This document shows, piece by piece, positions 22,154 to 39,436 of a DNA stretch of 64,000 nucleotides. Below the pieces are notes generated by a model. That model was not told the DNA's origin, searched no databases, and worked only from the letters and a program-made list of their open reading frames with translations. The position numbers were made by a program, and so were the translations under genes. This stretch comes from Megascapheus bottae. Taxonomy: Eukaryota > Chordata > Mammalia > Rodentia > Geomyidae. Position 1 is the stretch's first letter; each line of letters begins with the position of its first letter. Location: contig JANJXV010000004.1 in the NCBI GenBank assembly GCA_024803745.1, positions 45,383,358 through 45,447,357 on the forward strand, read 5' to 3'.

Positions 22154-22335
22154 ATGAATTTATTTCACTCATCCTGTGGAAATACCTCTACTGAACTTTT
22201 CAACAAATCCTGGGATCATGACTTTGCTTACCATACCCTCAGCGTGGTGGATACAGCCATCCTCCCTTCCTTGATTGGAGTTATCTGCTTCACGGGGCTG
22301 GTTGGTAATGTCCTCATTGTATTCACTATAATAAG
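22154..22335 (+). CDS. MCHR2: MCHR2 coding exon 1 (N-terminus and TM1)
   Basis: Encodes residues 1-60 plus two bases of codon 61. The N-terminus has two N-X-S/T sequons (N10-T-S, N17-K-S), and TM1 spans about residues 36-60 with the G-N-V-L motif at 51-54 (N1.50). The start codon has G at -3, and the peptide begins M-N-L-F-H, parallel to human M-N-P-F-H, which fixes the start. A second ATG seven bases upstream is out of frame. The donor AG|GTAAGAG splits arginine 61 in phase 2. Confidence 0.97.

Positions 22336-39436: not shown

Follow-up and report, generated by a model that had tools for sequence, protein, structure and literature searches.

A complete MCHR2 gene, likely under purifying selection, in the genome of a pocket gopher

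The genome of a pocket gopher (likely Thomomys bottae, now listed by NCBI as Megascapheus bottae, or close kin; Castorimorpha, Geomyidae) holds a complete and unbroken MCHR2 gene. Comparison of its sequence with those of its relatives makes it likely that purifying selection still acts on the gene and that its product is a working receptor for melanin-concentrating hormone (MCH). MCH is a brain hormone of appetite and sleep. The gene lies in the window analysed here, a stretch of 64,000 nucleotides at positions 45383358-45447357 of contig C4, in an assembly of 2.84 Gb and 2786 contigs.

The MCHR2 coding sequence is located at 22154-39436 of the plus strand, on which all features of the gene lie, and is composed of five exons with 1005 nt including the stop (334 codons). 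Coding exon 1 (22154-22335, 182 nt) contains the start codon, the N-terminus and TM1, and corresponds to the match of the protein to its own genome at C4:45405511. Exon 2 (28540-28749, 210 nt) is bordered by an AG acceptor and a GT donor and encodes TM2 and TM3 up to the R131 codon of the DRY motif, which is split between exons 2 and 3. Exon 3 (33587-33781, 195 nt) encodes ICL2, TM4 and ECL2 and shares its last codon, R196, with exon 4 (36274-36393, 120 nt), which encodes TM5 and whose skipping would preserve the frame; exon 5 (39139-39436, 298 nt) carries the joined frame through ICL3, TM6, TM7, helix 8, the tail and the stop. The first-pass annotation had proposed a five-exon open frame of 334 codons with clean GT-AG junctions and the landmarks of a class A GPCR, and this was borne out: no internal stop was found in the joined exons, GT-AG borders were found at all four introns, and N52, D79, C106/C184, D113, DRY (130-132) and N302-P303-Y306 are all present. 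The sole frameshift concerns the last dozen codons, a rewritten tail VTEMKSAIWKTS followed by the stop (39398-39436), which leaves the frame open and is shared in kind with the jerboa entry P0002 and with an entry of no species label, P0048. Pseudogene status was rejected for the gopher gene, in which there are no missing exons, stops or broken splice sites.

A chance origin of this frame is excluded, because not one of 5000 random five-piece joins, matched in length and taken from the same window, lacked stops (19.1 on average and never fewer than 4), and because the matches to 7tm_1 and to human MCHR2 are strong. The Pfam 7tm_1 match of the product (4e-50) covered all 260 profile positions. 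GC content of the coding sequence was 56% at third codon positions vs 39% at second positions.

Several other features were observed in the window. An out-of-frame ATG is located 7 bases 5′ of the MCHR2 start and opens an overlapping frame of 15 codons (22147-22194, plus strand), which could dampen translation. Long tetranucleotide arrays (GAAA, GAAG, TTTC, AAGA, AGAG) flank the gene and also occur within it (19863-20327, 21227-21305, 34671-34804 and 43916-44165). The element at 26707-26871 is a two-part repeat of which the halves recur genome-wide, with at least 40 matches listed including itself. A marginal tRNA match (43462-43531, minus strand; 29.1 bits vs the cut-off of 29) is perhaps part of a tRNA-derived SINE, and an open stretch of 204 codons (49215-49829, plus strand) with similarity to positions 141-351 of the 416 in the adenylosuccinate synthetase profile (PF00709, E 8.2e-50) is probably a fragment of a processed pseudogene.

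Among solved structures, the best match of the gopher product was human MCHR2 (8WST, E=1.4e-195, 652 bits), followed at a distance by MCHR1 (204 bits) and SSTR2 (165 bits). Gopher and human MCHR2 were identical at 281 of 324 residues with no gaps, and the protein trees placed the gopher product among mammalian MCHR2. No second copy of MCHR2 was found among 120 matches in the own genome, the near-identical ones being its own exons. The best other match, on contig C21, showed 41% identity and belonged to an open frame of 363 aa whose best solved match was human MCHR1 (E 3.1e-186); this paralogous MCH receptor is thus a different gene on a different contig. A match to Pro-MCH, the hormone precursor, is also present in the gopher genome, and the mature MCH sequence was not seen within the stretch retrieved around that match. 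A SIM_C domain was found 343 kb upstream of MCHR2 on the same contig and strand, in a gene that resembles human SIM1 rather than SIM2. The human MCHR2 and SIM1 genes flank a single locus at 6q16.3 (PMC6323625). On the basis of these sequence comparisons, the gopher gene is the orthologue of MCHR2.

The residues which hold MCH and activate human MCHR2 are named in PMC11074101. At 18 of the 19 positions named there (pocket and switch, some generic receptor numbers being converted to residue numbers by us) the gopher receptor carries the human residue; the exception, V181I, is conservative. The identical residues include D113, Q117, W93, H268, Q271, Y285, S295, Y296 and the A264 at 6.48. The gopher receptor thus has the DRY motif, the NPxxY motif and the A at 6.48 in common with human MCHR2 (8WST), and it differs from it by W196R, by V181I and in the tail past residue 322 (the alignment reaches residue 324). 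If it works as human MCHR2 does in the structural studies, the gopher receptor would sit in neuronal membranes, it would take up the MCH ring, with the ring's central arginine, in a pocket that has D113 and Y296 as its floor, and it would signal through Gq/11.

Constraint was judged from the proteins of relatives, through the placement of private residues and an estimate of neutral survival. For the former we compared 23 mammal rows over 321 positions, with invariant columns defined on 16 non-Glires mammals. Thomomys has 12 private residues, of which only R63K falls in an invariant column, vs 6.8 ± 1.7 if missense changes fell at random (P=0.0012). The private changes were also milder than random ones (mean BLOSUM 0.75 vs -0.37, P=0.026), and the mean conservation of their columns was lower than random, marginally so (P=0.060). 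Among the other Glires, the private residues in invariant columns numbered 4 of 16 in the jerboa, 2 of 14 in P0048, 3 of 8 in squirrel and 3 of 15 in pika; zero counts for tenrec and armadillo are meaningless, as both belong to the 16 mammals on which the columns were defined. The porcupine entry, which its source flags as low quality, has 21 of its 35 private residues in invariant columns, near the 56% share of such columns, and apparently has decayed in the pattern of a dead gene.

For neutral survival we assumed an indel ratio, a transition bias and a branch of 0.20 neutral substitutions per site, a length in line with genome-wide trees of 4-fold sites. On these assumed rates, a neutral gene should have gathered about 7 stops, 3 splice hits and 16 frameshifts after the jerboa split; none was observed in the 1005 nt and four introns of the gopher gene, the shared tail shift excepted. 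A rough omega was about 0.28 at the assumed neutral branch of 0.20 and ranged from 0.56 to 0.19 over branches of 0.10 to 0.30. Together these results suggest that gopher MCHR2 is likely under purifying selection.

Recent silencing, in which the frame is still open and expression was lost in the gopher within the last few million years, is the strongest of the alternatives and still an unlikely one. The Thomomys protein branch is somewhat long (0.113-0.116, with the jerboa at 0.108-0.109, squirrel at 0.057-0.078 and pika at 0.070-0.093), and W196R could fit such a history, since it stands at a position that is mostly W: at this codon of the exon 3-4 junction, W occurs in 90 of 120 relatives and R in six (armadillo, galah, black-footed ferret, a bat and two anchovy relatives), and the others show C, G or a gap. 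However, the 1005 nt bear no stop, no splice defect and no frameshift other than that of the tail, the private residues shun the invariant columns (the P value above), and at P=0.05, with a neutral branch length of 0.20 assumed, the neutral share of the branch would be at most about 11% when indels are counted and at most 28% from point changes only.

Alternatively, the gene could be transcribed mainly without exon 4, giving a truncated, non-signalling protein that lacks TM5. The length of this exon, 120 nt, is in frame, and two database entries, the squirrel model P0043 and P0048, lack exactly the exon 4 stretch as an in-frame skip of 120 nt; further MCHR2 entries of 295-300 aa, including P0036 (macaque isoform X2), P0046, P0050 and P0051, fit by length. 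Skipping of exon 4 may therefore be a regular feature of MCHR2. As the main product of the gopher gene, however, a skipped form is very improbable: the splice sites of exon 4 are intact, and of the 39 codons that lie wholly within it 37 encode the human residue, which would be unlikely if the exon were unused.

The tail bears on the history of the gene. It reads VTEMKSAIWKTS in Thomomys, VTKKKSTIWKTP in the jerboa (P0002) and VTEKKATVWKTP in P0048, and forms of EINN(M/I)EN(T/I)LKSxF make up the ordinary tail of the other aligned mammals. In an alignment of 24 rows (23 of the 120 listed proteins and the host), the rewritten tail was found in these three only; it was absent from the other 21 rows, among them all 14 other mammals, including squirrel, porcupine and pika. 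At the gopher tail the neighbouring frame has retained the sequence DEISHMEDILK, which corresponds to the usual tail of placentals. Between a conserved T and the W all three rewritten tails have six codons, one base below what the old reading needs, and therefore one net single-base deletion explains the three. Compared with other mammals, the gopher tail has the frameshift and one codon missing. No new protein of this type was found with an alignment of three proteins among the 120 matches listed of 373.

The jerboa protein (Jaculus jaculus, A0A8C5KZR7) is full-length, is identical to the gopher at 274 of 334 residues and likewise ends in W-K-T-(P/S), although this database prediction is one codon longer than the gopher ahead of the tail. 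P0048 was found on a contig of 1256 bases, encoding 295 aa in one stretch, and from its intron-free form it is a transcript or a processed copy. Squirrel (Sciurus carolinensis, P0043) and pika (Ochotona princeps, P0001) MCHR2 are about 83% identical to the gopher over aligned residues; their tails, unlike that of the gopher, are unshifted (KSNF and KSSF). In trees of 21 of the 120 listed proteins with human and the host, Thomomys, jerboa and P0048 grouped with a support of 100% when the tail was included, 65% without it and 53% without the tail and two low-quality rows, and the remainder of the tail-less tree was poorly resolved. We rejected the protein tree as proof of a rodent clade, the grouping depending mainly on the tail change.

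The host was assigned on the mitochondrial contig (C2786, 16962 bp). Its cytochrome b showed 98% identity with a Thomomys bottae entry, 96-97% with five other Thomomys entries and 91-94% with three more, 90-92% with other pocket gopher genera and 84-88% with kangaroo rats and pocket mice. The host is therefore a rodent of the family Geomyidae, likely T. bottae or close kin, as the first-pass annotation had supposed in naming a geomyoid rodent; a host outside rodents and lagomorphs, which it had seen as the undoing of its reading, does not agree with a Thomomys cytochrome b. In the own genome, 28 matches to COX1 included 15 full-length nuclear ones besides the mitochondrial contig. Seven nuclear copies were compared (L018-L024; contigs C391, C387, C50, C121, C65, C185 and C520), five of them sharing about 86% identity with the mitochondrial gene and at least 99.6% with each other, the other two sharing about 93% with the mitochondrial gene. 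The differences are mainly at third codon positions (17/2/166 over the three positions in one copy), with 1-6 amino acids changed of 447, and the copies are likely recent ones of divergent mitochondrial lineages, multiplied afterwards. Although the host assignment depends on a single 17-kb mitochondrial contig, it is barely conceivable that the window is non-rodent DNA, from contamination or a misassigned assembly, and so uninformative on rodents, since it lies within a 67.9-Mb contig also carrying the presumed SIM1, nuclear contigs of the same assembly hold COX1 copies 86-93% identical to the Thomomys mitochondrial contig, and the gene has the derived tail in common with the jerboa, a tail found in none of 12 non-Glires mammal rows nor in the fully or partly aligned rows of squirrel, porcupine and pika.

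Jerboas, which are classified as Dipodoidea within Myomorpha, are the sister group of muroids. Castorimorpha and Myodonta are united in a mouse-related clade by retroposon markers, as reported in PMC5335264. In the history we propose, the net loss of one base shortly before the stop would have rewritten the last dozen residues in an ancestor of Castorimorpha plus Myodonta, and MCHR2 would have stayed coding after it, the gene not being killed. The ancestor of the mouse-related clade thus likely still had a coding MCHR2. Because the jerboa, sister of the muroids, shares the rewritten tail, the loss in mouse and rat would postdate the jerboa split and would be separate from those in guinea pig and rabbit.

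The published loss in guinea pig and in rabbits, which the first-pass annotation had quoted, was found in print: PMC2117022 gives the loss in guinea pig and PMC7411258 a loss in Glires including rabbits and rodents. Since MCHR2 entries exist for squirrel and pika, the guinea pig and rabbit losses look separate, and on this comparison mouse, guinea pig and rabbit each seem to have lost the gene on their own. The intact gopher gene and the tail common to the jerboa and P0048 support the earlier suggestion that rodents did not lose MCHR2 in a single step at their origin. For the full history, we think it fairly probable that neither the rodent nor the Glires ancestor lost MCHR2, that gopher and jerboa have a working receptor with a rewritten tail, and that the losses in mouse and rat, in guinea pig and in rabbit were separate.

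These results contradict several printed statements. In the IUPHAR guide 2025/26 (PMC13242166) the rodent MCH2 receptor is described as seemingly a non-functional pseudogene, PMC3800845 likewise calls MCHR2 a pseudogene in rodent species, and one review dates the loss to the Glires ancestor. The intact gopher MCHR2 contradicts the guide and the reviews on rodents. It is not the first rodent copy, as jerboa and squirrel entries were already in the databases, and these predictions, above all that of the jerboa, already contradict the printed statement of rodent loss. Searches of the open-licence literature gave no paper that describes an intact MCHR2 in a rodent and none joining MCHR2 and Jaculus. 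Of the relatives proposed for comparison by the first-pass annotation, squirrel was found to have an MCHR2 entry; Dipodomys, Perognathus and Castor, as well as muroids, were not named among the 120 rows listed in either search, where members of 90% clusters are hidden (the cluster of P0001 has 144 members), so that a missing name is no evidence of loss. MCHR2 entries of many birds and of crocodiles also exist (P0028-P0031, P0107), whereas chicken MCHR2 is given as absent or a pseudogene in PMC2117022.

The statement that MCHR2 was lost in rodents is thus too broad, and the gopher gene together with the jerboa tail dates the murid loss later. Research on MCH is mostly carried out in mice and rats, and the gopher gene points to small rodents in which the two receptors might be examined side by side. 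If the full history above is true, living rodents with both MCH receptors exist and could serve as the missing animal model for MCHR2.
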